From contig NZ_JACORU010000018.1 in assembly GCF_014297445.1 (NCBI RefSeq), positions 1 through 64,000 of the forward strand: a stretch of DNA of 64,000 nt. The letters run 5' to 3'. Shown one piece after another: positions 12,736 through 27,328 of this stretch. The DNA is from Ramlibacter albus. Its GTDB lineage: Bacteria; Pseudomonadota; Gammaproteobacteria; Burkholderiales; Burkholderiaceae_C. The notes under the pieces are model-generated. The model had not been told where the DNA came from, searched no databases, and saw only the letters and a list, made by a program, of their open reading frames with translations. The translations under genes and the position numbers were made by a program. How positions within the stretch are numbered: position 1 is the stretch's first letter; each line of letters opens with the position of its first letter.

Positions 12736-13704
12736 CTAGTTCACCACGATGTTGGCTTCGCGGACGACCTTGGACCACTTCGCCCGCTCCCTGGCGATGT
12801 GCTCCGCGAAGGCTTCGGGCGTGCCGCCCACCGCCTCGGCGCCCTGCTCAGCGAGCTTCTGCTTCATCTCGGGCGTCGCGAGGATCGTGTTGATCTCGCG
12901 GTTGAGACGCGCCACCACTTCGGGCGGCGTGCCGGCAGGCGCCGCGATGCCGCTCCAGGAGAGCGACTCGTAACCGGGCACGCCGGACTCGGCCACCGTC
13001 TTCACGTCGGGCAGTGCGGGCGTGCGCTGGGTGCCGGTGACGGCCAGCACACGCAGCTTGCCACCCTTGATGTGGCCGACGGCGCCCGGCATGTTCTCGA
13101 ACATCATCGACACGCGTCCCGAGATCACGTCCGGCATGGCCTGCCCGCTGCCCTTGTACGGGATGTGCAGCAGCTCGGTGCCAGTCATCAGGCGGAACAG
13201 CTCGGCCGACATGTGCGTCGACGAGCCGGAGCCCGACGATGCGAACGATACCTTGGCGGGCGCCGCCTTCGCGGCTGCCACGACGTCCGCCACGCTCTTG
13301 AACGGCGAGTCGGTGGGCACGACCAGCACGTTGGTGATCGATGCGATGTAGATCACGGGCTTCAGGTCTTTCGCCGGGTCGTAGCTCAGGTTCTTGTACA
13401 TCGAGTCGTTGATCGCCATCACGCCGGTGGTGGCCATGAGCAGCGTGTAGCCGTCGGGCGGGGACTTCGCGACGGCGTCGGCACCGATGTTGCCGCCCGC
13501 GCCGGGGCGGTTGTCGATGACGACGGGTTGGCCGAGCGCGGTGGCGAGGCGGTCGCCGACCAGCCGCGCGAAGATGTCCGTCGAGCCGCCGGGCGCGAAC
13601 GGGACGACGATGCGCAACCCCTTCGAGGGCCACGTCTGCGAGTGGGCGGGGAGCGCGGCGGCAAAGAGGGCGATGCCGAGCGCGGCGAGGAGTCGGGGGT
13701 ACAT
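12736..13704 (-). CDS. Bug-family tripartite tricarboxylate transporter substrate-binding protein
   Basis: This encodes 322 residues. The signal peptide is about 1-22 (cleavage after A-H-S). Bug motifs are V-V-P-F-A-P-G-G-S-T-D, N-R-P-G-A-G-G-N-I-G, P-D-G-Y-T-L-L, H-I-P-Y-K-G-S and A-P-A-G-T-P-P. AGGAG precedes the ATG. It is placed directly before the aminotransferase, so its ligand may be an amino or keto acid; this is only contextual. No TctA/TctB genes nearby. Confidence 0.9.
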   Translation of the reverse strand: MYPRLLAALGIALFAAALPAHSQTWPSKGLRIVVPFAPGGSTDIFARLVGDRLATALGQPVVIDNRPGAGGNIGADAVAKSPPDGYTLLMATTGVMAINDSMYKNLSYDPAKDLKPVIYIASITNVLVVPTDSPFKSVADVVAAAKAAPAKVSFASSGSGSSTHMSAELFRLMTGTELLHIPYKGSGQAMPDVISGRVSMMFENMPGAVGHIKGGKLRVLAVTGTQRTPALPDVKTVAESGVPGYESLSWSGIAAPAGTPPEVVARLNREINTILATPEMKQKLAEQGAEAVGGTPEAFAEHIARERAKWSKVVREANIVVN

Positions 13705-13775
13705 CTTGGGATCTCCTGGTGCTGATGCGCGGGCCAGTATCCGCGCACCCCCGCCCGCGCGGCAGCGGGGTTGCC

Positions 13776-14240
13776 CTAGGAGTCGACGCGCACGAACTCC
13801 ACCGTGCCCGAGTGCTGCGGCACCGACACGAATGCATTCAGCGGCCACGAGTGCAGGCAGGCCAGCGTCGTCGGGCCATTCGGCGCGCCCGATTTCCACG
13901 ACACCGTCATCGTGTTGCCGGAGCGCACGACCTTCGTGATGGTGGGGATGTAGCAGCGGATGCCGGTGCCGAGCGAAACGCCGACGATCATCGAAGTGCT
14001 GAAGTCGTACGTGGGCGAGTCGGTCGTGGTTTGCCCCAGCTGCGGCGCCGGCGACCAGGCGGCGGAAAGCTCCCCCTGGTTGCGGAACACGTAGGTCGCA
14101 GGCGCGTAGGCGCCGTTGATGCGCGAGACGGCATCGGTCGAGGCGACCGGCTCGGCATCGGGCCCACCTCCGCCGCAGCCCGCCACCAGGGCAGCGCAGA
14201 AAACGAGGGGAGAAAGTACGCGGGTCAATCCTGGGTTCAT
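13776..14240 (-). CDS. lipoprotein with a PrcB-C-like domain
   Basis: This encodes 154 residues. The lipobox L-V-A-G-C gives lipidation at Cys22, followed by a Gly-rich linker. The C-terminal 80 residues have the pattern seen in PrcB C-terminal domains: M-I-V-G-V-S-L-G-T-G, an I-T-K-V strand, T-M-T-V-S-W, then an A-F-V-S-V-P ending before a last strand. The role is unknown. It ends 71 bases from the upstream Bug gene and starts 13 bases from the ABC exporter stop, so may be co-transcribed with it. Confidence 0.6.
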   Translation of the reverse strand: MNPGLTRVLSPLVFCAALVAGCGGGGPDAEPVASTDAVSRINGAYAPATYVFRNQGELSAAWSPAPQLGQTTTDSPTYDFSTSMIVGVSLGTGIRCYIPTITKVVRSGNTMTVSWKSGAPNGPTTLACLHSWPLNAFVSVPQHSGTVEFVRVDS

Positions 14241-14253
14241 CGGTCCTCCTTGC

Positions 14254-16092
14254 CTACTTTGCCATCACCGCGGCGTCCGCGCGCAGTTCGCCCTCGGCGC
14301 TCTGCTGCAACGCCCACATGTCCGCATAGCGCCCGCCACGCGCCAGCAGCTGCTGGTGCGTGCCGCGCTCGATGATGCGGCCCAGTTCCATCACGAGGAT
14401 CTCGTGCGCATCCACCACGGTGGACAAGCGATGCGCGATCACGAGGGTCGTCTTGTGCTCGGCCACGCTCTTGAGCTCCGCCTGGATCGCGCGCTCGTTG
14501 GCGCTGTCCAGCGCGCTCGTGGCCTCGTCGAAGATCAGGATGGGCGGGTCCTTGAGCAGCGTGCGAGCAATCGCCACGCGCTGCTTCTCGCCGCCGGAGA
14601 GCTTCAAGCCCCGCTCACCCACCATCGTCTGGTAACCGCGCGGCGTGCTCATGATGAAGTCGTGGATGCGGGCCGCACGCGCGGCGTCAACCACTTCGTC
14701 GTGCGTGCAGCCGGGTCGGCCGTACGCGATGTTGTATTCGACGGTGTCGTTGAACAGCACCGTGTCCTGCGGCACGATGCCGATGGCCTGCCGCACGCTT
14801 GCCTGCGTCACGTCGCGGATGTCGTGGCCGCCGATGGTGACGTGCCCTTGCTGCACGTCGTAGAAGCGGTACAGCAGCCGCGCCAGCGTGGACTTGCCGC
14901 TGCCCGACGGGCCCACCACCGCCACCGTCTTGCCGGCGGGGATCTCGAAGGTCACGTCGTGCAGGATCGGCCGCGCGGCCTCGTAAGCGAAATTCACATG
15001 CTCGAAGCGCACCGTCGAGTCCGCCACCGGCAGCGGCTGCGCGTCGGGCTTGTCCGCCACCTCGCGCTCCTTCTCCATCAGCGTGAACATCTTGTCCAGG
15101 TCCGTGAGGCTCTGCTTGATCTCGCGGTACAGCACGCCGAGGAAGTTCAGCGGGATGTACAGCTGGATCATGAAGGCGTTGACCATCACAAGGTCGCCCA
15201 GCGTCATGCGCCCGTCGATCACGCCCTGCGTGGCGCGCCACAGCATGGCGACCAGGCCGATGGCGATCACAAGCTGCTGCCCCGTGTTCAGCAGCGACAG
15301 CGTGGTCTGGCTCTTCAGGCGCGCGCGGCGCAGCCGCTCCAGGCTCTCGTCGTAACGTCGCGCCTCGGAGCCCTCGTTGTTGAAGTACTTGACCGTCTCG
15401 TAATTCAGCAGCGAGTCGATGGCCTTGGTGTGCGCGGCCGAATCGAATTCGTTGGCCTCGCGGCGGAACTTCGTGCGCCACTCGGTCACGCTCACCGTGT
15501 ACGTGACGTAGATGACGAGCGCGCCGATGGTGATCCACGCGAACCACGCGTCGAACTTCACCGCCAGGATCGTGAGCACCAGCGTCACCTCGATGATCGT
15601 GGGAACGATGCTGTAGAGCGAATATGAAATCAGCGACTCGATGCCGCGCACGCCGCGCTCGATGTCGCGCGTCATGCCGCCGGTCTGCCGCTCCAGGTGG
15701 AAGCGCAGGCTCAGCGCATGCAGGTGCTTGAAGGTCTCCAGCGCGATGGCGCGCGCCGCGCCCTGCGTGGCCTTGGCGAAGACCAGCTCGCGCAGCTCGG
15801 TGAAGAGGGTCGTCGACAACCGCAGCAGGCCGTAGGCCAGCAACAGACCGGCCGGCACCACCATCATGGCCATGGCCGTGCCGGCCTTGACGTCCATCGC
15901 GTCCACCAGCTCCTTGAGCAGCAGCGGCACGCCCACGTTGGCCAGCTTGGCGCCCACCATGAAGGCGAGCGCGGCCACGACGCGCCACTTGTATTGCCAC
16001 AGGTAGGGGAACAGGCGCTTGAGCGTCGCCCAGTCGGACCGGGGGCCGGTGTGCAGGGGTGCTGGAGGTGATGGGTCGCCGCCGCGGCGCAT
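14254..16092 (-). CDS. Atm1/HMT-type ABC exporter, fused membrane and ATPase domains
   Basis: This encodes 612 residues from ATG 16092. Longer in-frame extensions exist upstream but would cover the divergent thioesterase. Residues 25-340 form a six-helix exporter membrane domain; the ATPase follows, with Walker A G-P-S-G-S-G-K-S-T, signature L-S-G-G-E-K-Q-R, Walker B I-L-I-F-D-E-A-T-S and an H-loop A-H-R-L-S-T. The N-R-E pattern (N-Y-E-T-V-K-Y-F-N) is typical of Atm1-like exporters of glutathione or Fe-S-related thiols. It works as a homodimer in the inner membrane. Substrate inferred from family only. Confidence 0.9.
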   Translation of the reverse strand: MRRGGDPSPPAPLHTGPRSDWATLKRLFPYLWQYKWRVVAALAFMVGAKLANVGVPLLLKELVDAMDVKAGTAMAMMVVPAGLLLAYGLLRLSTTLFTELRELVFAKATQGAARAIALETFKHLHALSLRFHLERQTGGMTRDIERGVRGIESLISYSLYSIVPTIIEVTLVLTILAVKFDAWFAWITIGALVIYVTYTVSVTEWRTKFRREANEFDSAAHTKAIDSLLNYETVKYFNNEGSEARRYDESLERLRRARLKSQTTLSLLNTGQQLVIAIGLVAMLWRATQGVIDGRMTLGDLVMVNAFMIQLYIPLNFLGVLYREIKQSLTDLDKMFTLMEKEREVADKPDAQPLPVADSTVRFEHVNFAYEAARPILHDVTFEIPAGKTVAVVGPSGSGKSTLARLLYRFYDVQQGHVTIGGHDIRDVTQASVRQAIGIVPQDTVLFNDTVEYNIAYGRPGCTHDEVVDAARAARIHDFIMSTPRGYQTMVGERGLKLSGGEKQRVAIARTLLKDPPILIFDEATSALDSANERAIQAELKSVAEHKTTLVIAHRLSTVVDAHEILVMELGRIIERGTHQQLLARGGRYADMWALQQSAEGELRADAAVMAK

Positions 16093-16132
16093 GGGGGAGA
16101 ATCCGTGGGTACTGTTTGAGAGGATTGTGCCC

Positions 16133-16543
16133 ATGTCCGCCATCGCCCAGCTGCCCCCGCCCCCATTGCCCTCGGACAAGGAACTGGTTCTCAAGGTCAT
16201 CCCCATGCCGGCGGACACCAACGGCAACGGCGACATCTTCGGCGGCTGGGTCATGGCGCAGGTGGACCTGGCCGGCTCGGTGATCCCGGCGCGGCACGTG
16301 CAGGGGCGAATGGCCACCGTGGCGGTGAACCAGTTCATCTTCAAGCAGCCGGTGCGCGTGGGCGACATCCTGAGCTTCTTCTCGCACGTCACGCGGATCG
16401 GCAACACCTCGATCACGGTCGACGTGGAGGTTTACGCGGAGCGCTTTCGCGCGCAGGGGCAGTTCGTCAAGGTGACGCAGGCGTCGCTCACCTACGTCGC
16501 CATCGACGACGACGGCAAGCCGCGGCCGATCCCGAAGAGCTGA
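16133..16543 (+). CDS. YciA-type acyl-CoA thioesterase
   Basis: This encodes 136 residues with a single hotdog domain. N-G-N-G-D-I-F-G-G-W-V-M-A-Q-V-D is the family's catalytic Asp region, and F-K-Q-P-V-R-V-G-D follows. YciA hydrolyses short and medium acyl-CoAs and helps free CoA. Only 40 bases separate its ATG from the start of the divergent ABC exporter gene, so they share a promoter region. A hairpin follows the stop. Confidence 0.88.
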   Translation: MSAIAQLPPPPLPSDKELVLKVIPMPADTNGNGDIFGGWVMAQVDLAGSVIPARHVQGRMATVAVNQFIFKQPVRVGDILSFFSHVTRIGNTSITVDVEVYAERFRAQGQFVKVTQASLTYVAIDDDGKPRPIPKS

Positions 16544-16565
16544 CGCGCCCCCGGGCAAGGGCGCG
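16544..16565. terminator. bidirectional hairpin between convergent genes
   Basis: CGCGCCC and GGGCGCG pair over 7 bp with an 8-base loop, directly after the thioesterase stop and 7 bases from the phoD stop on the other strand. No T-run follows, so intrinsic termination is uncertain. Confidence 0.45.
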
Positions 16566-16572
16566 CGCTCGT

Positions 16573-18108
16573 TCAGGCGCCCTCGACCCGCACGCCCGCG
16601 ACGCCGTCGGCCACGGAGAACCGCTGAAAGGGTCGCACGGGTGACGCGGCATCGGCCACGTCGTCCACGGCGCGGAACTCGACGCGGCAACGCTCGCTGG
16701 CGATGTCGGCCACGGCGTAGCCGCGGCGGTCCGCGCGCCCCCAGCGCAGGTGCGGGTTGTTGGCCAGCATGCGCTGGACCGTCTCCGCGCGCGGCCCTTC
16801 GGACGTGATCGCGCCGCCCACGAACTCGCTCGCCACCGCCGGGCCGCCCGGCTCGCGCACGACGTCGGCCGCCCAGAAGGCGTGCACGTCGCCGCTCGCC
16901 ACGACCACGTTCGACGGCCGGTGCCGCGCCAGCGCGTCCAGCAGGCGCGTGCGCGCCGCCGGGTAGCCGTCCCAGCCGTCCATCCAGTACGCCGGCGCGT
17001 CGCGCGTGCCGCGGTTGGTGGGTGTGAGCAGCGTGGGTTGGCCCAGCACCGTCCATTTCGCGGGACGCGCCTGCAATTGCTGATCGATCCACGCCTCCTG
17101 CGCCGCGCCGAAGAAGGTGCGCGCGGCGTCCTGCCTCTGCGCGCAATCCACCAGCGGCTGTGCGCTGGTTCCCGGCAGGCACACGTGCGGCGAGCGGTGC
17201 TGCCGGCCGTCGAGCACCAGCAGGTCCACCTGGTCGCCGAAACGGTAGCTCGCGTGGATGGTGGCCATGCCGTTGCGCGGCCGCATGCTCGCGGGCACGG
17301 GCATGTGCTCGTACCACGCCTGGTAAGCGGCCGCGCGGACCTTCATGAAGCGCGCCGGCTCCTGCATGCGTTGCGAACGGTCGCCGGTGTAGTCGTTGGC
17401 GACTTCATGGTCGTCCCAGGTGACGACCCACGGGAAAGCGGCATGCGCCGCCTGCAGGTGTGCGTCGCCCTTGTAGAGCGCATAACGATCGCGGAACTCG
17501 TGGAGTTCGGTCGGGATCCCGGTTTCGTGGCGGCGCACACGCCGGACGCCCCACGACGACTCGTAGATGTAGTCGCCCAGGTGCAGCACGAAGTCCAGCT
17601 GCTGCGTGGCCATGTCGCGGTAGGCCGTGAACCAGCCTTGTTCGTAGTGTTGGCACGAAGCGAACGCGAACCGCACCGGTGCGTTGCTGCCGGCGGCGGG
17701 CGCGGTCCGGGTGCGGCCGGCGGGGCTGCGCGCACCCAGCGCGGTGAATCGGTACCAGTAGTCACGCGCGGGTTGCAGCCCGGAGAGCTCCACGCGCGCC
17801 GAATGCGCCTCGTCGGCCGACGCCCGCACGCTGCCGCTCGCCACGACTTGCCGGAAGCCTTCGTCCGCCGCGAGTTCCCATTGCACCGGCACCGCCGCAT
17901 CGCCCATGCCGCCGCCTGCGAGCGGCTCCAACGCCAGGCGCGTCCACAACACGACGCCGTCCGGGCGCGGGCAACCCGAGGCCACGCCGAGCGTGAACGG
18001 GTTGCGGTCCCGCCGCGGCTGCGCATGCAGCACGAGCGCGGGGCACGCCAGCATCGCCGCGCCGCCCGCGAGCAGCCGCCGCCGTGCGCCGCGCATGCCG
18101 CTGCTCAT
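16573..18108 (-). CDS. phoD: PhoD-like alkaline phosphatase/phosphodiesterase
   Basis: This encodes 511 residues. A twin-arginine-like start (R-R-R-L-L-A-G-G) and a hydrophobic segment ending L-H-A-Q suggest Tat export. An N-terminal Ig-like domain (N-P-F-T-L-G-V-A-S-G) is followed by the metallophosphatase domain with A-S-C-Q-H-Y-E, H-L-G-D-Y-I-Y-E and T-W-D-D-H-E-V-A-N-D-Y. PhoD enzymes use Fe/Ca and cleave phosphomonoesters and diesters, including teichoic-acid-like glycerophosphates. The start overlaps the ugpQ stop as ATGA, so it belongs to the glycerophosphate operon and may release the imported ligand in the periplasm. Confidence 0.9.
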   Translation of the reverse strand: MSSGMRGARRRLLAGGAAMLACPALVLHAQPRRDRNPFTLGVASGCPRPDGVVLWTRLALEPLAGGGMGDAAVPVQWELAADEGFRQVVASGSVRASADEAHSARVELSGLQPARDYWYRFTALGARSPAGRTRTAPAAGSNAPVRFAFASCQHYEQGWFTAYRDMATQQLDFVLHLGDYIYESSWGVRRVRRHETGIPTELHEFRDRYALYKGDAHLQAAHAAFPWVVTWDDHEVANDYTGDRSQRMQEPARFMKVRAAAYQAWYEHMPVPASMRPRNGMATIHASYRFGDQVDLLVLDGRQHRSPHVCLPGTSAQPLVDCAQRQDAARTFFGAAQEAWIDQQLQARPAKWTVLGQPTLLTPTNRGTRDAPAYWMDGWDGYPAARTRLLDALARHRPSNVVVASGDVHAFWAADVVREPGGPAVASEFVGGAITSEGPRAETVQRMLANNPHLRWGRADRRGYAVADIASERCRVEFRAVDDVADAASPVRPFQRFSVADGVAGVRVEGA

Positions 18109-18866
18109 CGCCCGGCGCGGCGCGCCCCCAGGCACAGGTCCGGGCGGTCGGTGGTGATCTGGCGCACCGGCATCTTCATCCAGTGCGCGATCTCGCCGGG
18201 CTCGTTGATCACCCACACGCCCAGGCGCTCGCTGCCGAGCGCGCGCAGGCACTGGTTCCACGTGGCGGCAAGCAGCACCTTCTGCACGGCGACGATGCAA
18301 CCGGGGATGGCGTTGTAGCGCTCCAGCGCGCGCGTGATGCCGCCCAGCATCTCCGCGCTGCGGTGGTCGAGCGAGGCGAGCACGCGGCCTTGCGGCCACT
18401 CCCGCCGCACCTGCTCCAGCACCTCGGGCACGAAGCAGGTGAGGATGCTGCGGTCGGCCACGCCGGCGTCGTGCAGCTTGCGCACGAGGCGCGCGATGGC
18501 GCCGTCCGGCAATTCGCCGGCCGCATTGGTCTTGATCTCCACGTGCAGTTCCATGCGCGTCGGGCGGAAGAAGTCGAGCACGGCATCGAGTGTAGGCACG
18601 CTCTCGCCCGAGGGGGCATCCACCGCGCTCTGGCCGCGGCGCAGCCGCGCGCTCAGGACAGTGACGGCATCGAGGTCCTTCACCGCGCCGCGCGCGTCGG
18701 TGGTGCGGTCCAGCAGCGGGTCGTGCAGCACGACGGCCGTGCCGTCGCGTGTTTCGTGCACGTCGAACTCCACCGCGTCCGCGCCGAGTTCGATCAGCTT
18801 GCGAAACCCGAAGAGGCTGTTCTCCGGCCACAGTTCCCGCGCGCCGCGGTGTCCCACGATGATCAT
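18105..18866 (-). CDS. ugpQ: glycerophosphodiester phosphodiesterase
   Basis: This encodes 253 residues. The GDPD signatures are G-H-R-G-A-R-E-L-W-P-E-N-S at the N-terminus, E-F-D-V-H near residue 34, and H-V-E-I-K-T-N near 110. There is no signal peptide, so it is the cytosolic UgpQ type that cleaves glycerophosphodiesters entering through the Ugp transporter to a glycerol phosphate and an alcohol. It lies between ugpE and phoD in the same transcript. Confidence 0.92.
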   Translation of the reverse strand: MIIVGHRGARELWPENSLFGFRKLIELGADAVEFDVHETRDGTAVVLHDPLLDRTTDARGAVKDLDAVTVLSARLRRGQSAVDAPSGESVPTLDAVLDFFRPTRMELHVEIKTNAAGELPDGAIARLVRKLHDAGVADRSILTCFVPEVLEQVRREWPQGRVLASLDHRSAEMLGGITRALERYNAIPGCIVAVQKVLLAATWNQCLRALGSERLGVWVINEPGEIAHWMKMPVRQITTDRPDLCLGARRAGR

Positions 18867-18888
18867 GCTTGCGTGCTCCTTGTCGGTT

Positions 18889-19773
18889 TCACTTGCTGCT
18901 GTCCACCAGGCCCTTCACGAACGACCGCTGCAGCACCACGACCACCACCACCGGCGGCAGCATCGTCAGCAGCGCGGCCGCCATGGCCACGTTCCACGCG
19001 GGCTGCGTGTCGGATTTCGGGATGAGGTGCGTCAGGCCGATCACCGCCGTGCCCATCTCCGGCTCGGTCGTGAAGAGCAGCGGCCACAGGTACTGGTTCC
19101 ATCCGTACAGGAACAGGATGATCGCCAGCGCCACCATGTTCGAGCGCGACAGCGGCAGCAGCACCGTGAAGAAGAAGTGCATCGGGCTCGCGCCGTCCAG
19201 GCGTGCCGCCTCGCACAACTCGTCGGGCACGGTCAGGAAGAACTGGCGGAACAGGAACGTGGCCGAAGCCGAGGCCACCAGCGGCAGGATCAGCCCCGGG
19301 TAGGTGTTGACCATGTTCCATTCGAGGTGCACGTCCAGGTGCGCGAGGTCGGCGATCCACTGCAACGGCAGGGCCGCATTGGCGACCGCCTCGTACGTCG
19401 GCGAGATGCGGACCTCGATCGGCAGCATCAGCGACACGAAGATCAGCCAGAACGCCGCCATGCGGAACGGGAAGCGGAAGTACGTGATGGCGAACGCCGA
19501 CAGCATCGACACCGCGATCTTGCCCACGGTGATGCCCACGGCTACCACGAACGAGTTGAAGAAGAGGCGCTGGAAGTTGGCCTTGCTCCAGGCCGTGCCC
19601 ACGTTCGCGAGGAACTCGCCGCCCGGCAGCCAGGGCAGCGGCACCTGCAGCACCTCCTCGATGGTGAGGGAGCTCGCCACGAACGCCAGCCAGAGCGGCA
19701 CGCAAACGGCCGCGACGCCCGCCAGCAGGAGGGCGTGGCAAATGCCGTTCAGGATGGGGGTGCGCTCGACCAT
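18889..19773 (-). CDS. ugpE: sn-glycerol-3-phosphate ABC transporter permease UgpE
   Basis: This encodes 294 residues, MalG-type, with six membrane helices. The EAA loop that contacts the ATPase is recognisable (E-L-C-E-A-A-R-L-D-G-A-S-P). The C-terminus carries the long final helix and a short tail. Two bases separate it from ugpA. The E. coli counterpart moves glycerol-3-phosphate and glycerophosphodiesters. Confidence 0.9.
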   Translation of the reverse strand: MVERTPILNGICHALLLAGVAAVCVPLWLAFVASSLTIEEVLQVPLPWLPGGEFLANVGTAWSKANFQRLFFNSFVVAVGITVGKIAVSMLSAFAITYFRFPFRMAAFWLIFVSLMLPIEVRISPTYEAVANAALPLQWIADLAHLDVHLEWNMVNTYPGLILPLVASASATFLFRQFFLTVPDELCEAARLDGASPMHFFFTVLLPLSRSNMVALAIILFLYGWNQYLWPLLFTTEPEMGTAVIGLTHLIPKSDTQPAWNVAMAAALLTMLPPVVVVVVLQRSFVKGLVDSSK

Positions 19774-19775
19774 CT

Positions 19776-20678
19776 TCAGGAGTCGTAGTTGACCTTGCGC
19801 TCGACGTAGCGGAACTGCAGCAGCGTGAGCAGCAGCGCGAACGTCATCAGGATCACCGACTGCGCGGCCGACGAGCCCAGGTCCAGGTTGACGAAGCCGT
19901 CGGTGAACACCTTGTAGACCAGCACGTTGGTGGCCCCCGCGGGCCCGCCTTTCGTGACGGCATGCACAATGGCGAACACCTCGAAGAAGCCGTACACGAA
20001 GTTCATCACCGCCAGGAAGAACACCGTCGGCCCGAGCAGGGGCAGCCCCACGCTGAAGAACCGCCGCAGCGGTCCCGCGCCGTCCACCGCGGCCGCCTCG
20101 ATCAGCGACGACGGGATGGCCAGCAGCCCGGCCAGCAGGAAGATGTAGTCATAGCAGATGTGCTTCCACGACGCGGCCAGCACGACGAGCACCATCGCGT
20201 CGGTGCCGTTGCGGTTGGGGTCCCACGCCAGCCCCATGTCCTGCATGACGTGGGCGAGCGGCCCCACGGCGGGGTTGAAGAGGAAGGCCCACAGGATGCC
20301 CGCGATGACCGGCGCGATCGCGTAGGGCAAGAGGATGATCGCCTTGTACAGCTCGCGCCCGCGGATGATGCGGTCCGATGCGAATGCGAGCACCAGCGCG
20401 ACGGCGATGGTGAGCACGTTCTGCGCGAGCGTGAACACCACCGTCACCTTCACGGACTCGCGGTACGACTCGCTCGCGAGGAGCTGGCGGAAGTTGTCGA
20501 GGCCGGCGAAATGGACGGTGTTGCCGAACGGGTCGGACAGCAGGAAGGCCTGCGTCAGCGCGCGCAGCGACGGGATGAAGAAGAAGAACAGCAGGATGCC
20601 CAGCTGCGGCAGCAGCAGCAGCACGGGCAGGCGCACGCCGCGGAAGTGCGCGCGCTTCAGGCCTGCTTCTTCTCCCAT
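19776..20678 (-). CDS. ugpA: sn-glycerol-3-phosphate ABC transporter permease UgpA
   Basis: This encodes 300 residues with six membrane helices. The EAA loop appears as I-E-A-A-A-V-D-G-A-G-P. The N-terminal R-L-P-V-L-L-L-L-P-Q-L precedes the first helix. It partners with UgpE in the heterodimeric channel. The stop lies 2 bases before ugpE; the start lies 10 bases after ugpB. Confidence 0.9.
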   Translation of the reverse strand: MGEEAGLKRAHFRGVRLPVLLLLPQLGILLFFFFIPSLRALTQAFLLSDPFGNTVHFAGLDNFRQLLASESYRESVKVTVVFTLAQNVLTIAVALVLAFASDRIIRGRELYKAIILLPYAIAPVIAGILWAFLFNPAVGPLAHVMQDMGLAWDPNRNGTDAMVLVVLAASWKHICYDYIFLLAGLLAIPSSLIEAAAVDGAGPLRRFFSVGLPLLGPTVFFLAVMNFVYGFFEVFAIVHAVTKGGPAGATNVLVYKVFTDGFVNLDLGSSAAQSVILMTFALLLTLLQFRYVERKVNYDS

Positions 20679-20688
20679 GTCGTTACTT

Positions 20689-22014
20689 TCAGTACTTGCC
20701 CTTGTTCAGCTTCTCGTACTGCCGCAGGATCTCGTTGCCGCGCGAGACGGCCGCGTCCATCGCCTCCTGCGGCGTCTTCTTGCCGGCCAGCACGGCCTCG
20801 AACTCCTCGCGCTGGGCGAACATGGTCTGCGTGAAGTTGCCGAAGTGGAACCCGGTGGAGTTCTCGGTCGGCGTGCCGCGGCCCAGCTGCAGGATGGCGA
20901 TCTCGCGGGTCGGGTGGTCCTTGTAGTAGCCCTGGATCTTGGCGATCTGGTAGGCCTTGTCGGTGAGCGGCACGTAGCCCGTCACCTTGTGCCACCAAAG
21001 CTGCGTCTCAGGCTTGGCCAGGAAGGCGAGGAAGGCGGCGACGCCTTCGTACTCCTGCGGCTTGCCGCCCTTGAGCACCCACAGCGCCGCGCCGCCGATG
21101 GTGCTGTTCTTCGGCTGCCTGCCCTGCTCCCACGGCAGGTAGGTGGCGCTCCAGTCGATCTTGGAATTGCGCTCGATGCTGCCGTGCGCCGCGGTCGAGG
21201 CGAAGAACGTGGAGCACCGCCCGGACGTGAAGAGCTGCTCGGGGCTGAAGCCCTGGCCGGCAATCTGCATCAGGCCGTCGTCGACCCATTTCTTGATGCG
21301 CGCGACCTGCTGGACCACGCCGGTCTTGTTGTAGACGAACTCGGTGTTCAGGCCCTTGTAGCCGTTGGCCTGCGTGGCATAGGGAAAGTCGTTGATCGCG
21401 CTGTAGTTCTCGAACAGGCTCCAGTGGTAGTCCCCCGCCAGGGCCGAGCCGCACTGCGAGATGCCCTTCTGCTTGATCGCATAGAGCTGCTTCTCGAGGT
21501 CCTGCCACGTCTGCGCGGGCCCGTTGGGGAAGCCGGCTTTCGCGAAGTGCTCCTTGTTGTACCAGAGGATCGGCGAGGACGAGTTGAAGGGCATCGCCAT
21601 CAGCTTGCCCTTGTAGCTGTAGAAGCCGGCGACGGGCCGCACGAAGTCGTTCCAGTCCACCTGCTGGCCGCGCTGCGTCATGAAGTCCTGCACCGGCAGC
21701 GTGGCGTCGGACAGCAGCATGGTCATGAAGCCGCGCTCGTAGATCTGCACGAGCTGCGGCGCGCGCTTGGCGCGGTACGCGGCGATTGCGGCGTTGATCA
21801 CCTCGTCGTAGTTGCCCTTGTTGGTGGCCACCACCTGGTACTTGGTCTGCGACGAGTTGAAGTTCTTCACCAGCTCGTCGACGCGCTCGCCGAGCGTGCC
21901 GCCCATGGCGTGCCACCACTGCACCTGGATGGGTTGCGCGGCCGCGGGCAGCGCGTTCAGGCCGAGCAGCGCCGCGCAGGCGCCGGCCGTCAGCAAACGT
22001 CGGAATGCATTCAT
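20689..22014 (-). CDS. ugpB: sn-glycerol-3-phosphate ABC transporter binding protein UgpB
   Basis: This encodes 441 residues. The signal peptide (about 1-26) ends A-A-A. The mature N-terminus reads I-Q-V-Q-W-W-H-A-M-G-G-T-L-G, followed by K-G-N-Y-D-E-V, close to E. coli UgpB, which binds G3P and glycerophosphocholine. The C-terminal V-L-A-G-K-K-T-P-Q-E-A-M-D and R-G-N-E-I-L-R-Q also match. It is the periplasmic receptor of the UgpAE channel. The start overlaps the stop of the dehydrogenase gene. No ugpC ATPase gene occurs in the operon. Confidence 0.92.
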   Translation of the reverse strand: MNAFRRLLTAGACAALLGLNALPAAAQPIQVQWWHAMGGTLGERVDELVKNFNSSQTKYQVVATNKGNYDEVINAAIAAYRAKRAPQLVQIYERGFMTMLLSDATLPVQDFMTQRGQQVDWNDFVRPVAGFYSYKGKLMAMPFNSSSPILWYNKEHFAKAGFPNGPAQTWQDLEKQLYAIKQKGISQCGSALAGDYHWSLFENYSAINDFPYATQANGYKGLNTEFVYNKTGVVQQVARIKKWVDDGLMQIAGQGFSPEQLFTSGRCSTFFASTAAHGSIERNSKIDWSATYLPWEQGRQPKNSTIGGAALWVLKGGKPQEYEGVAAFLAFLAKPETQLWWHKVTGYVPLTDKAYQIAKIQGYYKDHPTREIAILQLGRGTPTENSTGFHFGNFTQTMFAQREEFEAVLAGKKTPQEAMDAAVSRGNEILRQYEKLNKGKY

Positions 22015-23405
22015 GGTCTGTCTCCTTGGGCAAGGTTGCTTGAAATCGCGGGCGTGTGTCGCCACGTCGGGGGTTGAACGGTCCAGAAGCCCTGCGGGCC
22101 GCACAGCTCGCCGACGGCGCGGTCGAGCCAGCCCAGGTCTTCCAGCAAGTCGAGCAGCGTGTAGCGGCGCCGGATGAGGCGCGCACGGCGGTAGTCGGCG
22201 GCCAGCGTCGCCACGTCGAGGCCGAGGTCGTGCGGATGCGTGGGCGCGCCGAGCGTCGCGAGGCGGCGTTGCATCTCGCGCGCGGGCACGAGGCGCGAGG
22301 CCAGAGACTGGCGCAACCCGGGCCACGCCGACATGAAGCGCTGCACGCGCGCGCTGCGGCTGCCGATCGCGCGTTTCGCAGTCATCTCGGTGCGTGCGGC
22401 GGCGGCGACTTCGCCGTCGCCCAGCGCTGCGGTGATTTCGCGGTCGAGCGCGGCAGCGTCGTCGTAGTCGGGTGCATGGGCGGACTCGAGTTCCTGCGCG
22501 GTGCGCGCCAGCAGCCACTCGTAAAGCGCAAGCATCGCCACGCAGCCGACGCCGACGCACGCGCCGTGCGCCGCTGCTTCGCCGTCCACCTGCAGGCCTT
22601 CCATCTCCCACAGGTGCGAGAACTGGTGGTCGCTGCCGCTGGCGGGGCGCGAGTTGCCGTGCGCCTGCATCGCGAAGCCGCTCACGAGCAGGCCGGCGAG
22701 CAGCGCGGCCAGCGCCTGCGGGTCGGCCGCGGCCAGGCGTTCCGGCCGTCCCAGCCATTCGGGCAAATGATCCTGCACGAGGTCGAACGGCCCGCGGTTG
22801 ATCGCTTCCACGCCCAGCGCGTCGGCCAGCACCCAGTCGGCGCCTGCCACCACCTTGCCCGCAAGGTCGCCATAGCCCCAGCCCACCATGCGTGCGGGCG
22901 CGGACGCGAGCACCGCGGGGTCGGCGAGGATCGCCACGGGCGGCGGGCATGCGAGCGTGCGCTTGAAGCCGCCCTCCAGCAACGCGGCGCCGGACGCGGC
23001 GTAGCCGTCCATCGATGCGGCGGTCGCCACGCAGACATAAGGCCGGCCCGCGATCGCGGCGGCATATTTGACGAGGTCGTTGACGACGCCGGACCCGACG
23101 GCCACGGGCGTCGCGCCTGTCTGCGCCAGCCGCGCCGCGACCAGTTGCGCCGCCTCCGCGCGCGGCTTCAGGCGCGGCTCGGCGTCGAACAGCAACGGGC
23201 TCGCCGTGCCCTGGCCTTGCGCCTGCAGCGCCTCGTGCACGTCACGGCCCGCGGCCTCCCACGTTTTGCGGTCGGCCACCACGAGCCAGCGCGCCCCCGG
23301 TGCCACGCGGGCCGCAACGGCCGGCACCGCCGCCGCGGCGCCCGGCCCCACCACCACTTCACGGGTCACGGCCGCATCGCGAAGCGCGGCTTCCAGGATC
23401 GTCAT
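22011..23405 (-). CDS. sn-glycerol-1-phosphate dehydrogenase-like (EgsA/AraM family)
   Basis: This encodes 464 residues. The NAD(P)-binding region is A-V-G-S-G-V-V-N-D-L-V-K-Y at about 102-114. A-T-A-A-S-M-D-G-Y-A-A-S-G lies at 127-139, and the metal site is suggested by G-Y-G-D-L-A-G-K and by N-S-R-P-A-S-G-S-D-H-Q-F-S-H. These are hallmarks of the iron-alcohol-dehydrogenase-like glycerol-1-phosphate dehydrogenases (archaeal EgsA, bacterial AraM/EgsA). They interconvert dihydroxyacetone phosphate and sn-glycerol-1-phosphate. It is the first gene of the ugp operon, overlapping ugpB by ATGA. A C-terminal extension beyond the archaeal length is present. Catalytic direction is inferred to be oxidation of scavenged G1P. 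Confidence 0.8.
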   Translation of the reverse strand: MTILEAALRDAAVTREVVVGPGAAAAVPAVAARVAPGARWLVVADRKTWEAAGRDVHEALQAQGQGTASPLLFDAEPRLKPRAEAAQLVAARLAQTGATPVAVGSGVVNDLVKYAAAIAGRPYVCVATAASMDGYAASGAALLEGGFKRTLACPPPVAILADPAVLASAPARMVGWGYGDLAGKVVAGADWVLADALGVEAINRGPFDLVQDHLPEWLGRPERLAAADPQALAALLAGLLVSGFAMQAHGNSRPASGSDHQFSHLWEMEGLQVDGEAAAHGACVGVGCVAMLALYEWLLARTAQELESAHAPDYDDAAALDREITAALGDGEVAAAARTEMTAKRAIGSRSARVQRFMSAWPGLRQSLASRLVPAREMQRRLATLGAPTHPHDLGLDVATLAADYRRARLIRRRYTLLDLLEDLGWLDRAVGELCGPQGFWTVQPPTWRHTPAISSNLAQGDRP

Positions 23406-23406
23406 C

Positions 23407-23437
23407 AAAACAAGTGTATCGCACGGAAAACAAATGT
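23407..23437. promoter_or_regulatory. paired direct repeats between the dehydrogenase and sorC-type genes
   Basis: AAAACAAGTGT (23407-23417) and AAAACAAATGT (23427-23437) are 10 of 11 identical and start exactly 20 bases apart, two helical turns. They lie 2 bases upstream of the dehydrogenase ATG and about 30 bases before the regulator ATG. They are the only AT-rich stretch nearby and are the best candidate operator for the SorC-type regulator. Confidence 0.55.
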
Positions 23438-23469
23438 CTAGTAGCATCATCCGCGCGGGGGAAGCACGA

Positions 23470-24414
23470 ATGGACGACGAGGAAGCCGCGGTACGCGCGG
23501 CGTGGCTCTATTACATGGAGGGCCTCACGCAGGACCGCGTGGCAGGCCGGCTGGGCACCACGCGCCTGCGCGTGAACCGCCTGCTGGGCGAGGCGCGCAC
23601 GAGCGGGCTGGTGGGCATCACCATCAACTCGCGGCTGGCAAGCTGCCTGGCCCTGGAGGACGAACTCAAGCGCGCCTGGGGGCTGGCGGATGCGGTGATC
23701 GTGCCGACGCCGCAGGACGCGGCGCAGTTGCCGCTGCAGCTCGGGCGCGCCACCGGCGAGTTCCTCTCGCGGCACCTGGAGACGCACCGCGTGCGCCGCA
23801 TCGGCGTGGGCTGGGGCGCGACGCTGCGCGAGACCATCCGCTTCGTGAAGGCGGGCCAATGGCCGCAGCTGCACGTGAGCTCGATGATGGGCGGGCTGAC
23901 GCATGGCCTGGAGATCAACACGTTCGAGACCGCCAGCGCGCTCGCGGCGCGGCTGGGCGCGAGCTGCAGCTACCTCGCGGCGCCGCTGTATGCGGGCTCG
24001 CCGAAGTCGCGCGACCTGCTGGTGGCGCAGGACGTGTTCAAGGAGTCGTTCGCGGGGATGGCGGCCAACGACGTCGCGCTGCTGAGCGTGGGCGATTTGA
24101 GCGACAAGTCGCTGCTGATCCGGTACGGGCTGCCGCGGGACGTGACCGTGGCGAGCCTGAAGCGCGCGCATGCGGTCGGCGACATCCTCGGGCGGTTCAT
24201 CGACGCGGACGGCCGGCCGGTGGACCACCCCCTCAGCCAGCGTGCGATCTCGCCGCCGCTGGAGACGCTGGCGAAGATACCGACGGTGATCGTCACCTCC
24301 GGGGGCGACAACAAGGCGGGCGTGATCGCGGCGGTGCTGCGCGGGAAACTGGCGTCGGTGCTGGTGTGCGACGAGAAGACGGCGGCGGGGGCGTTGAAGC
24401 TGGCTGGCGGGTAG
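23470..24414 (+). CDS. SorC/DeoR-type sugar-phosphate-responsive regulator
   Basis: This encodes 314 residues from ATG 23470. An ATG at 23434 would sit inside the upstream repeat, so I prefer the later one. Residues 10-45 form the helix-turn-helix (Y-M-E-G-L-T-Q-D-R-V-A-G-R-L-G). The rest is the SorC sugar-binding domain (G-V-G-W-G-A-T-L, L-L-S-V-G-D-L-S). Members of the family respond to sugar or polyol phosphates. Being divergent from the glycerophosphate operon, it most likely controls it, with a glycerol phosphate or DHAP as effector. The effector is inferred. Confidence 0.85.
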   Translation: MDDEEAAVRAAWLYYMEGLTQDRVAGRLGTTRLRVNRLLGEARTSGLVGITINSRLASCLALEDELKRAWGLADAVIVPTPQDAAQLPLQLGRATGEFLSRHLETHRVRRIGVGWGATLRETIRFVKAGQWPQLHVSSMMGGLTHGLEINTFETASALAARLGASCSYLAAPLYAGSPKSRDLLVAQDVFKESFAGMAANDVALLSVGDLSDKSLLIRYGLPRDVTVASLKRAHAVGDILGRFIDADGRPVDHPLSQRAISPPLETLAKIPTVIVTSGGDNKAGVIAAVLRGKLASVLVCDEKTAAGALKLAGG

Positions 24415-24420
24415 GCAGAC

Positions 24421-24449
24421 ATGGATGCCGGGTCGAGCCCGGCATGACA
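24421..24449. repeat. 29-bp dispersed palindromic repeat, copy 1
   Basis: A 29-bp unit starts ATGGATGCCGGG and ends CGGCATGACA. It folds on the arms GATGCCGGG/CCCGGCAT. It fills the 39-base gap between the convergent regulator and crotonase genes, where it could also act as a terminator-like hairpin. Three further copies occur in the window. Confidence 0.8.
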
Positions 24450-24453
24450 GCTC

Positions 24454-25257
24454 TCAGAACTTCCCGTGGCGTCCCTCGCCCGACGCGAAGCGCGTCGCGC
24501 CCTGCAAACCGTCCGCGATGCGGTGCTTGCTGCGCTGCCACTCCGTCACCAGCGCGCGCTGGAACGGCTGGTCCCATTGCTCGTAGGCGTTCATGCGGTC
24601 GGCGAGCATCGTGGCCTGCGGAAACTTCGTGAGCTGCTGCGCGAGCTCGAGGGCGGCCTCGCGCACCGAGCCCTTGGGCACGACGCGGTTCGCAAGGCCC
24701 ATCTGCAACGCCTCGGCCGACTCCACCTTGCGGCCCGTGAGGATCAGGTCGAGCGCGCGTGAGAGCCCGACCAGCCGCGGCAACCGCACCGTGCCGCCGT
24801 CGATCAGTGGCACGCCGAAGCGGCGGCAGTAGACGCCGAAATACGCGTCTTCCTCCATCACGCGCATGTCGCACCACAGGGCCAGCTCCATGCCGCCGGC
24901 CACGGCGGCGCCGCTCACTGCTGCAATGACGGGCTTGGAAAGCAGCAGGCGCGAGGGGCCCATCGGCCCCAGCGGGTTCTCGTCGAGTTCGTCGAAGTCC
25001 AGCTGCGAAATGGCCGGCACGCCGCCCTCGCTTTGCGCCATGCGCGCACCATATTGCAGGTCCCAGCCGGCGCAGAAGTGCCCGTTTGCGCCGTGGAACA
25101 CCGCCACGCGCGCATCGGCGTCCGCGTCGAACGCGAGGAACGCCCGGTACAAGGCCCGCGCGGTCTCCGCGTCCACGGCATTGCGCACATCGGGGCGGTC
25201 GAGTGTCACGACCGTGACCGCGCCGAGCTTGTCCACCGTCACGGCTGGCGTTTCCAT
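24454..25257 (-). CDS. enoyl-CoA hydratase/isomerase (crotonase) family protein
   Basis: This encodes 267 residues. H-F-C-A-G-W-D-L is the acyl-CoA oxyanion-hole strand (usual A-G-x-D). A-A-V-S-G-A-A-V-A-G-G-M-E-L is the second oxyanion element; the first catalytic Glu position of classical hydratases is not obvious, so activity may differ. Starts at 25257 or 25266 (M-P-G) are both possible. It is divergent from the liv operon, 122 bases away, which suggests linked regulation. Confidence 0.85.
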   Translation of the reverse strand: METPAVTVDKLGAVTVVTLDRPDVRNAVDAETARALYRAFLAFDADADARVAVFHGANGHFCAGWDLQYGARMAQSEGGVPAISQLDFDELDENPLGPMGPSRLLLSKPVIAAVSGAAVAGGMELALWCDMRVMEEDAYFGVYCRRFGVPLIDGGTVRLPRLVGLSRALDLILTGRKVESAEALQMGLANRVVPKGSVREAALELAQQLTKFPQATMLADRMNAYEQWDQPFQRALVTEWQRSKHRIADGLQGATRFASGEGRHGKF

Positions 25258-25379
25258 GCCCGGCATTACACCCGAAACCACCGCCACCGGTCGAGTTCGC
25301 GACAGCCATTACGGGGCAACCCTGTATTTGATCCGGCCCCTCGCCGATATAACGAAAGCCCCCTACTTCGAGGCAACGC

Positions 25380-26255
25380 GTGCAATTCCTCCAACTGTTG
25401 ATCAGCGGCGTGGCGCAGGGCTGCATCTACGGCCTGATCGCGCTGGGCTTCGTGCTGATCTACAAGGCCACCGAGACGGTGAGCTTCGCGCAGGGCGAAC
25501 TCATGATGCTCGGCTCGTTCTTCGGCTTGGCGGCCATGACGATGATGGGCTTCCCCTTCTGGGTGGCGGTGATCAGCGCCATCGCCGCCATGGCGCTGTT
25601 CGGGCTGCTGCTGGAAACGATCGTCATCCGCCCGATCCTGGGGCAGCCGGCTTTCTCGATCGTGATGCTCACGGTGGGCATCGGCTACGTGGCGCGCGGC
25701 CTCATCACGATGATCCCGGGCATCGGCACCGACACGCACACGCTGCCCGTGCCGTACAAGGACCAGGTGTGGAACGCCGGCGGCCTCGTGCTCAACGTGG
25801 AGCAGATGGTGGTGATCGGGGCGACCACGGCCTTGTGCGCGCTGCTCTATGTCGTCTTCAAGTACAGCAAGGTCGGCATCGCGATGCAGGCCGCGTCGCA
25901 GAACCAGCTGGCGGCCTATTACATGGGCATCCCGGTGAAGCGGCTCAACAGCGTCGTGTGGGGGCTCGCCGCATCCGTCGCGGCAATCGCCGGGCTGCTG
26001 CTGGCGCCGATCACGTTCGTGCACGCGAACATGGGCTTCATCGGGTTGAAGGCTTTCCCCGCGGCGGTGGTGGGTGGCTTCGGCAGCTTGCCCGGCGCGA
26101 TCGTCGGCGGGCTGGTGATCGGCACCGTGGAATCGCTCTCGGGCTTCTACCTGCCTGAAGGGTTCAAGGACGTTGCCGCGTACGTGGTCGTGTTGATCAT
26201 GCTGATGGTCAAGCCCAACGGTCTCTTCGGCGAGAAGCTCCGGAAGAAGGTATGA
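25380..26255 (+). CDS. livH: branched-chain amino acid-type ABC permease LivH
   Basis: This encodes 291 residues with a GTG start and GAGG upstream. About eight hydrophobic segments are visible; I-Y-G-L-I-A-L-G-F-V-L-I-Y-K-A near residue 20 and the G-F-G-S-L-P-G-A-I-V-G-G motif near 240 are typical. It partners with LivM. In this family many operons transport aromatic or branched carboxylates and not amino acids. The stop overlaps livM by 4 bases. Confidence 0.93.
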   Translation: MQFLQLLISGVAQGCIYGLIALGFVLIYKATETVSFAQGELMMLGSFFGLAAMTMMGFPFWVAVISAIAAMALFGLLLETIVIRPILGQPAFSIVMLTVGIGYVARGLITMIPGIGTDTHTLPVPYKDQVWNAGGLVLNVEQMVVIGATTALCALLYVVFKYSKVGIAMQAASQNQLAAYYMGIPVKRLNSVVWGLAASVAAIAGLLLAPITFVHANMGFIGLKAFPAAVVGGFGSLPGAIVGGLVIGTVESLSGFYLPEGFKDVAAYVVVLIMLMVKPNGLFGEKLRKKV

Positions 26256-27328
26256 GATTCATCTTCAAGACCGACTACGACCAGGACATCCGCCTGGCCA
26301 AGCATGGTGGCCACGTCTTCTGGTACGGCCTGCTCGGTGTGGTGCTGCTGGCCGCGCCCTGGGTGTTCGGGCAGTACGCGCTGTCGCAGCTCACGTTCGT
26401 GCTGATCTACTCCATCGTCGGGCTGGGGCTGATGCTGCTGGCCGGCTTCACGGGGCTCTTCTCGCTCGGGCACGCGGCTTTCCTCGGCGTGGGCGCGTAC
26501 ACGCAGGCGTACTTCACGTCCAAGGGCATGCCGTTCCCGCTGGCGATGGTGGTCGCGACGGTGCTGTCTGCGGCAGTGGGCATCGTGGTGGGGCTGCCGG
26601 CGCTGCGCGTCAAGGGCATCTACCTCGGCATGGCCACGCTGGCGTTCGGCTTCATCGTGGAGGAAGTGCTGGCGCGCTGGGAGTCGGTGACCAAGGGCAA
26701 TGCCGGCATGAGCGTGAGCAAGCCCTCGATGTTCGGCTGGAGCCTGTCCAGCGACACCGAGTTCTACTACCTGTGCCTTGTGGTCACGGCAGCCGCCACG
26801 CTCGCGATCCTCAACCTGCTGCGCTCGCCGACGGGCCGCGCCTTCGTCGCGATCCGCGACAGCGAGATCTCCGCGCAGAGCATGGGCATCCACCTCGCGC
26901 GCTACAAGACGCTGTCGTTCGCGCTCTCCGCCGCGCTCGCGGGGCTGGGCGGCTCGCTCTACGCGCACAAGCTGTCCTTCATCTCGCCGGACCAGTTCAA
27001 CATCCTGCAGTCGATCGACCTGCTGCTGATGGTGGTCATCGGCGGGCTCGGCTCGGTGCACGGCGCCTTCCTGGGCGCGATCTTCATCATCTCGATGCCG
27101 CAGCTGATCGCGGTGGTGAAGGACTACCTGCCACCCACCATCGGCCAGGCCGCGGGCCTGCAGGCCGTGGTGTACGGCAGCGTGCTCATCGCCTTCGTGA
27201 TGTTCGAGCCGATGGGCATCTACGGCCGCTGGCTGAAGATGCGCACCTACCTGCAGCTCTTCCCGTTCTACCGCAAGGGCTTGTTCAAGCGGCAGAAGTC
27301 CTTCCAGAAATCGGACCGGTTGAAATGA
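26252..27328 (+). CDS. livM: branched-chain amino acid-type ABC permease LivM
   Basis: This encodes 358 residues. A charged N-terminal extension of about 22 residues precedes the membrane domain. G-L-N-type motifs appear as G-L-G-L-M-L-L-A-G-F-T-G-L-F-S-L-G-H-A-A-F and as I-G-G-L-G-S-V-H-G-A-F-L-G-A. It is an inner-membrane partner of LivH. Followed by an 85-bp intergenic repeat before livG. Confidence 0.93.
   Translation: MRFIFKTDYDQDIRLAKHGGHVFWYGLLGVVLLAAPWVFGQYALSQLTFVLIYSIVGLGLMLLAGFTGLFSLGHAAFLGVGAYTQAYFTSKGMPFPLAMVVATVLSAAVGIVVGLPALRVKGIYLGMATLAFGFIVEEVLARWESVTKGNAGMSVSKPSMFGWSLSSDTEFYYLCLVVTAAATLAILNLLRSPTGRAFVAIRDSEISAQSMGIHLARYKTLSFALSAALAGLGGSLYAHKLSFISPDQFNILQSIDLLLMVVIGGLGSVHGAFLGAIFIISMPQLIAVVKDYLPPTIGQAAGLQAVVYGSVLIAFVMFEPMGIYGRWLKMRTYLQLFPFYRKGLFKRQKSFQKSDRLK

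Follow-up and report, generated by a model that had tools for sequence, protein, structure and literature searches.

An EgsA-like dehydrogenase heads a ugp-type operon in Ramlibacter albus that probably serves the catabolism of an imported polyol phosphodiester

We analysed a stretch of 64,000 nucleotides from Ramlibacter albus (contig NZ_JACORU010000018.1 of assembly GCF_014297445.1, positions 1 to 64,000; hereafter the window), in which six minus-strand genes encode an EgsA/AraM-type dehydrogenase, UgpB, UgpA, UgpE, a UgpQ-type phosphodiesterase (GDPD) and PhoD. It is likely that these genes form a catabolic operon for an imported polyol phosphodiester, which is controlled by a SorC-type regulator and in which EgsA acts oxidatively. 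The evidence consists of the gene order and gene families, a conserved operator, a changed UgpB pocket, and the absence of loci that hold both EgsA and a phosphatase of the HAD-IA group.

Results

A distinct group of UgpB proteins

UgpB, UgpA and UgpE of the window are homologous to their counterparts in the canonical UgpBAEC system (E. coli; Phaeobacter MED193, UgpB structure 9lff), and the phosphate-binding residues Tyr64, Ser143, Ser266 and Tyr342 of UgpB are kept. In contrast to that system, the window has Asp for Trp188, Met for Arg393 and a one-residue insertion in UgpB, a SorC operator, and no ugpC in the operon. The pocket was compared at the nine residues named for Phaeobacter UgpB in PMC12718374. 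Seven are retained (the four above together with Glu88, Trp191 and Gly303), and the two changes cost it one glycerol-clamp Trp and the Arg that binds a hydroxyl. Trp, Trp and Arg were read in all of the 27 canonical UgpBs of the genus that were checked. In a tree from which the truncated L038 was omitted, 38 sequences including that of the window formed one clade (SH-aLRT 100, quick method), which we refer to as D-type; all 38 have Asp at position 188, and Met, Thr, Gly, Asn or Trp at position 393, with Arg in none. The residue read at 188 varies with the placement of the neighbouring insertion, being Gly, Asn or Ser in a smaller alignment, and it is Trp in no alignment. Judged by sequence, the D-type proteins are a distinct UgpB group that appears to be altered on the polyol side of the pocket with its phosphate ligands kept.

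The transporter of the operon is not the ordinary ugp system of the cell, since a separate canonical UgpB with ugpC lies elsewhere in the same genome (contig C34). A UgpB at an E-value of 1e-60 or better was present in 56 of the 60 genomes of the genus; apart from the window's own, only those of G001 and G004 reached at least 80% identity to it in this search, and all three adjoin EgsA.

Gene content of D-type and canonical loci

We assembled 39 D-type loci (the window, 17 found through EgsA, 3 from plasmids and 18 by a genome search with UgpB) and 21 canonical ugp loci (20 of the genus and 1 plasmid, one stretch being only 10 kb long), and counted neighbour genes within 9 kb of UgpB; the near-copies L148 and L184 were both counted. 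A SorC gene was found in 39/39 D-type against 0/21 canonical loci, and GDPD in 38/39 against 5/21. PhoD (18/39), EgsA (19/39), HAD-IA (15/39), any FGGY (pentulose-type) kinase (16/39) and a ribitol-dehydrogenase-like short-chain dehydrogenase/reductase (SDR; 5/39) were confined to D-type loci, with 0/21 canonical loci in each case. UgpC showed the reverse distribution (13/39 against 20/21). GlpD-like genes occurred in 2 D-type loci and no canonical one, and a D-arabinitol-dehydrogenase-like gene in one of each kind, the canonical one being L188.

EgsA and HAD-IA occurred together in none of the 39 D-type loci. A product that ordinary metabolism cannot use would fit this arrangement of importer, GDPD and a single phosphomonoester enzyme, which is an oxidising one in some loci and a phosphatase in others. 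Among the 15 HAD-IA matches, two are weak (L163 and L182; 132-134 bits) and do not lie downstream of GDPD. The loci with neither enzyme are L180, which runs into a contig end, and L159 and L185-L187 of one genus; the latter four all have a medium-chain dehydrogenase/reductase (MDR) gene, and three of the four an IMPase-type phosphatase gene. FGGY genes stand beside EgsA in 8/19 loci and beside HAD-IA in 4/15. In L159 (5614-6614) the PhoD-like gene is split into separate reading frames; it is intact in the sister loci.

Regulator and operator

The start codons of egsA and of the divergent regulator gene are separated by 64 bp, which hold both a promoter-like site and a tandem operator. Neither the regulator gene nor the operator figured in the initial annotation. 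The operator is the sole match in the 64 kb window at up to one mismatch (0.03 expected), and the promoter-like site the sole sigma-70-like one in 16200-24600 (0.3 expected). The octamer ACA-NW-TGT was first noticed in EgsA loci, and the motif was defined on part of the loci; a fairer test is therefore provided by the plasmid loci, the loci found by UgpB and the genome scan. In 36 of the 39 D-type loci the 200 bp ahead of the first gene contain octamers; there are 51 sites in 7.8 kb of upstream sequence as against 20 in the remaining 784 kb, and 3 were found in the 381 kb of 20 canonical ugp loci. A pair exactly 20 bp apart, with up to one mismatch allowed in one octamer, is present in 33/39 D-type loci. 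We also scanned 24 genomes that had been picked for holding EgsA or D-type UgpB: the exact tandem occurs in 13 of them, one copy each (reversed control, 0), and in 10 of the 13 it sits upstream of D-type ugp genes. L159 and L185-L187 have another tandem, which stands ahead of the MDR dehydrogenase gene.

In the other three genomes, which belong to a single genus, the exact tandem is not before ugp but separates a second SorC-family gene from a transaldolase gene (459 bits); the operator may therefore typify a SorC subfamily, and to regard it as the mark of a single regulon is too simple. These three tandems are at L221 9558, L222 9520 and L223 9677, with FGGY and HAD-IA genes a few kb away, and L221 additionally has a D-arabinitol-dehydrogenase-like gene near the tandem.

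The six genes of the operon

Profile matches confirmed the coordinates and families of the six genes proposed in the initial annotation (Table 1). The egsA/ugpB and ugpQ/phoD pairs share ATGA overlaps, and the remaining intergenic gaps are 2-22 bp. UgpE passes its equivalog model, and UgpB and UgpA fall slightly short of theirs. No ugpC was found among the six genes or adjoining them; ugpC-like genes sit elsewhere in the genome.

Table 1. Positions in the window of the operon genes, the regulator gene and the sites between them
Feature	Position	Strand	Evidence
egsA-like dehydrogenase gene (iron-type alcohol dehydrogenase superfamily, glycerol-1-phosphate dehydrogenase group)	22011..23405	-	PF13685 105 bits (cut-off 28), NF002022, fold model
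ugpB, D-type substrate-binding protein gene	20689..22014	-	NF008211 380.9 bits (cut-off 411); closest PDB 9lff; pocket residues
ugpA permease gene	19776..20678	-	NF007852 315.6 bits (cut-off 335)
ugpE permease gene	18889..19773	-	NF008210 349 bits, cut-off 297 exceeded
GDPD (ugpQ-type) phosphodiesterase gene, no leader by eye (cytoplasmic)	18105..18866	-	PF03009 111 bits (cut-off 23.6); UgpQ-type NF006989 91 bits, below 264
phoD-type phosphodiesterase/phosphatase gene, Tat-like leader by eye	16573..18108	-	PF09423 342 bits and PhoD_N 105 bits, both past cut-off; NF058638 464 bits, below 1000
Divergent SorC/DeoR-type sugar-binding regulator gene	23470..24414	+	PF04198 189 bits (cut-off 27)
Tandem operator ACAAGTGT-N12-ACAAATGT, 28 bp	23410..23437		Sequence match; conservation upstream of related operons
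Promoter-like TAGACA-16-TACACT, overlapped by the operator	23413..23440	-	Sigma-70-like pattern search

The EgsA-like dehydrogenase

An AlphaFold model of the dehydrogenase, made from 25 family sequences (pLDDT 90.3), is closest to B. subtilis AraM, a Ni-dependent sn-glycerol-1-phosphate (G1P) dehydrogenase (9h4x; Z 42.7 over 372 residues, root-mean-square deviation 2.3). It is followed by 3ce9, named a glycerol dehydrogenase (Z 38.3), by archaeal G1P dehydrogenases (35.4-36.7; 4rgq 36.7 and 5fb3 36.4), and by glycerol dehydrogenases at 32.0 or less. Asp180, His260 and His280 are invariant in 86 of 86 aligned rows, and we take them to be the metal ligands. The enzyme has the same fold as AraM, the same Asp/His/His positions and the same SRPASG motif, in which only a few of the aligned rows show single changes. 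It differs from AraM in being 29% identical to it in the structural alignment, in a long branch and in Trp266, a residue present in all 83 family rows and replaced by Ile, Ile and Leu in AraM and the two archaeal reference enzymes. Its gene has a ugp context, whereas AraM is encoded in an ara operon (PMC5059525). Going by the model, the window dehydrogenase is a G1P dehydrogenase in fold, and the fold leaves its substrate specificity unfixed; the enzymes whose function is known from tests are remote, in view of the branch length of 2.97 and the Trp266 difference. The EgsA/AraM identity given at the outset stands for fold and motif, with the NF002022 match under its cut-off and the clade remote from the tested enzymes.

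A tree of 86 rows places the ugp-linked enzymes in one clade of 21 rows (support 98/99), three of which are without ugp. The sister clade comprises 27 rows, nearly all alphaproteobacterial, many of which adjoin genes for an ABC transporter, a XylB-like kinase and an SDR. The neighbourhoods of this sister clade (L053-L108, mainly Rhodobacterales and Hyphomicrobiales) have a sugar-type ABC transporter, a XylB-like kinase and a 6-phospho-3-hexuloisomerase-like protein, and also a GolD/DthD-like SDR and a HAD-IIA phosphatase.

No homologue of PcrB/GGGP synthase was matched in the 99.7% complete genome, a search that was positive in 7 of 14 control genomes including B. subtilis. A catabolic reading of the dehydrogenase fits with this absence. 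For sn-glycerol-3-phosphate (G3P), a GlpD homologue lies elsewhere in the genome (282 bits, below the cut-off of 360). G1P is a product of the kind that ordinary metabolism cannot use.

Distribution of EgsA and its linkage to ugp genes

EgsA is an accessory protein, since it was found in 5 of the 60 genomes of the host genus and in 2 of the 299 genomes of the family sample, the window's own counted. In plasmid records searched at an E-value of 1e-40, it was seen only in two distant Rubrobacter records. Neighbourhoods were drawn for 80 loci out of 490 EgsA relatives; the peptides FSHLWEM and ATAASMDG were used, which favours this subfamily, and L025, L027 and L028 were dropped as duplicates of L035, L041 and L038. 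D-type ugp genes stand beside EgsA in 15 of the 80 loci (L036-L040, L042-L049, L051 and L052), all of them among the 18 closest listed relatives (at least 53% identity). The linkage extends to Variovorax, Microvirga, Stella and an alphaproteobacterial metagenome-assembled genome (MAG), so conservation, which had been suggested as a check, was borne out for this linkage. An FGGY-kinase-cluster gene lies within the fetched stretch in 45 of the 80 loci.

In eight loci (L076, L096, L104-L106, L111, L112 and L114), which come from Bacteroidota and, in one case, a verrucomicrobial MAG, the EgsA relative has a GlpT/PgtP/UhpC-type transporter gene next to it; seven of the eight carry a HAD-IIA phosphatase gene, and L112 also has GlpD-like and GDPD-like genes.

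Rhizobium-type modules

Among plasmid records, D-type UgpB was found in Rhizobium and Nitratireductor, and EgsA was not seen on those stretches. The cluster on pRL9 of Rhizobium johnstonii 3841 (L147) shares with the window a divergent SorC gene, D-type ugpBAE, GDPD and the 20-bp tandem operator. Its order is SorC and UgpC divergent from UgpB, A, E, GDPD, a HAD-IA hydrolase, an SDR and an FGGY kinase, so that the last three take the place of EgsA and PhoD of the window, and ugpC is present. Among solved structures, the SDR best matches entries named ribitol 2-dehydrogenase (391 bits). The kinase belongs to the TIGR01315 pentulose kinases (719 bits), and its nearest PDB entries, 3gg4/3l0q, are named glycerol or xylulose kinase. 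In the R. johnstonii-like loci L160, L161 and L176 the ribitol-dehydrogenase-like SDR is missing and the kinase comes next to HAD-IA, downstream of it. L163 has a D-arabinitol-4-dehydrogenase-like gene (340 bits, cut-off 600) immediately behind GDPD. Near the operon in the window and in the Variovorax loci no pentitol genes were found. GlpD (816 bits) is encoded in the divergent cluster of L051, and L052 has a GlpD-like match. In the smo locus of S. meliloti a putative phosphatase hydrolase and a kinase adjoin a mannitol/arabitol dehydrogenase (PMC10433430).

Discussion

We propose that exported PhoD would release, from a polymer or the remains of a lipid, diesters that can be imported, and that D-type UgpB with UgpA and UgpE would import the diester using an ATPase encoded elsewhere, presumably a borrowed one because the operon is without ugpC. 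Cytoplasmic GDPD would then cleave the diester, and the EgsA-like enzyme would oxidise the released polyol phosphate to a keto-phosphate for central metabolism. The SorC-type regulator presumably senses a phosphorylated intermediate and acts at the tandem operator over the promoter. Our first choice of substrate in the phosphate half is G1P, giving dihydroxyacetone phosphate (DHAP), a choice that we hold with slightly less than even confidence; a pentitol phosphate, giving a pentulose phosphate, comes second and is offered more tentatively.

Several results weigh against this reading. A branch of 2.97 parts all 83 non-reference rows from AraM, and the NF002022 equivalog scores 165 bits, under its cut-off of 413. 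L035, L041 and L050 have EgsA and a divergent SorC gene without D-type ugp genes (in L035 the tandem is just upstream of EgsA), and the exact tandem stands at transaldolase genes in the three genomes mentioned above. Since 17 of the 39 D-type loci were found through EgsA, its share is inflated; the 21 loci found by UgpB alone have EgsA once (L158), HAD-IA 15 times and neither in 5 cases. Moreover, EgsA and HAD-IA largely track lineage, the four states needing 5 changes on the tree of UgpB, so their mutual exclusion rests on few events.

A bacterial transporter for G1P was first reported in 2025, in a paper whose main text, by a word search, showed no gene assigned to G1P breakdown (PMC12718374). 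As reported there, canonical UgpB, that of Phaeobacter, binds G1P as well as G3P, and one bacterium, the Phaeobacter strain, grows on G1P. These findings, and the G1P dehydrogenase fold and motif of the EgsA-like enzyme, support the use of G1P through the operon that the initial annotation proposed; the UgpB of the window lacks two residues that contact glycerol phosphate, which speaks against it. In its original form the proposal was that glycerophosphoglycerol from phosphatidylglycerol, or archaeal lipid remnants, yield G1P, which EgsA converts to DHAP. The same enantiomer would also be available from lipoteichoic acid (LTA) and from periplasmic glucans substituted with phosphoglycerol: LTA is described as a polymer of sn-G1P units (PMC7086022), and the MDO glucans of E. 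coli as carrying sn-G1P (PMC8027125). GlpD in L051, the GlpD-like gene in L052, and the GlpT/PgtP-type transporter genes beside some Bacteroidota EgsA relatives, with the GlpD-like and GDPD-like genes of L112, also favour a glycerol phosphate. Even so, we consider this route from lipid remnants less likely than not, though it stands as one of two serious alternatives. A glycerol-clamp Trp and the hydroxyl-binding Arg are lost from UgpB, and the ribitol-dehydrogenase-like and pentulose-kinase neighbours of related operons would be left unexplained. The tested GDPD, GlpQ, speaks against the supposed release of G1P from glycerophosphoglycerol, since according to PMC7086022 its product is sn-G3P and not G1P; the GDPD of the operon would have to show the reverse preference. 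Neither phosphatidylglycerol nor archaeal debris is singled out as the source, and the neighbour genes imply a pentitol as well. In sum, a catabolic phosphodiester role for the operon is likely, and the specific G1P route possible.

The same neighbour genes could mean that the EgsA-like enzyme is a pentitol-phosphate dehydrogenase, acting on ribitol or D-arabinitol phosphate to give a pentulose phosphate, and that the diester is a pentitol phosphodiester such as a ribitol-type teichoic acid fragment cut by PhoD; we regard this, too, as less likely than not. It would account for the pRL9 cluster with its ribitol 2-dehydrogenase-like SDR and TIGR01315 kinase, for the FGGY and SDR genes that accompany D-type and not canonical loci, for the FGGY genes in over half of the 80 EgsA loci, for the gene after GDPD in L163, and for a UgpB pocket changed on its polyol side. 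Against it, the nearest structures of the dehydrogenase are G1P dehydrogenases, the window and Variovorax have no pentitol genes near the operon, the kinase follows HAD-IA without the SDR in L160, L161 and L176, and a D-arabinitol-dehydrogenase-like match is also found near canonical L188. Pentitol genes flank EgsA loci as well, so EgsA is no simple stand-in for phosphatase, dehydrogenase and kinase; the idea that it merely replaces these three is weakened accordingly.

A diester of two parts suits the data better than such a swap, because FGGY genes accompany EgsA as well as HAD-IA. In several relatives the genes around the operon point to a pentitol as the other half, or as both halves. We put forward, tentatively and with well under even confidence, that these loci (ugp2) are an overlooked operon type of Burkholderiales, Rhizobium and relatives, Microvirga and Stella, one that would import a two-part polyol phosphodiester such as sn-glycero-1-phospho-pentitol or a teichoic-acid fragment. 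EgsA or a phosphatase would handle the phosphate half, inaccessible to GlpD, in most lineages, and a pentitol dehydrogenase with a pentulose kinase would take up the pentitol half. If this were true, it would mean Gram-negative bacteria grazing on the teichoic acids of Gram-positive ones, or on a similar polymer.

An ordinary phosphate- or G3P-scavenging ugp operon with an incidental egsA is highly improbable. In its favour, UgpE exceeds the cut-off of its curated ugp model, UgpB and UgpA come close to theirs, and phosphodiester import also gives phosphate. Against it, canonical UgpB and ugpC are encoded separately, egsA stands first in the operon and shares an overlap with ugpB in an arrangement that recurs across several lineages, and no Pho-box-like match was found near the operon at up to 3 mismatches, the one match lying at 36905 (2.5 expected). 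Least likely of all is a reductive EgsA making G1P for archaeal-type or mixed-chirality lipids, a role that is known for archaeal EgsA and matched by AraM, which feeds an ether lipid in B. subtilis (PMC5059525, PMC13400652), since the genome gave no PcrB match, an importer and a phosphodiesterase are co-transcribed with EgsA, and EgsA is accessory. The catabolic direction assumed from the start agrees with the missing PcrB homologue; its end point is less settled, with a phosphatase in the place of EgsA in Rhizobium-type modules and FGGY neighbours that imply a pentitol.

A survey of open-licence literature by title and opening of the abstract returned no report of an EgsA-ugp operon or of the D-type ugp group, which is weak evidence. 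The operon brings together, under one operator, candidates for an importer, a hydrolase and a dehydrogenase, and the natural exchange of EgsA and HAD-IA can be used for finding the substrate. Other polyol phosphates may be the substrates of bacterial proteins that carry the name 'sn-glycerol-1-phosphate dehydrogenase', a caution that matters for what is concluded about mixed lipid stereochemistry in bacteria.

Minor observations

By eye, egsA has no ribosome-binding site, and an operator octamer ends 5 bp ahead of the start codon (23403-23437); for these reasons its message may be leaderless. An Rfam scan of 13000-27000 returned no RNA element at the gathering threshold. Beyond the regulator gene, at 24454-26255, lie a minus-strand crotonase-family gene and a plus-strand branched-chain-type ABC permease gene, which apparently belong to an unrelated cluster.

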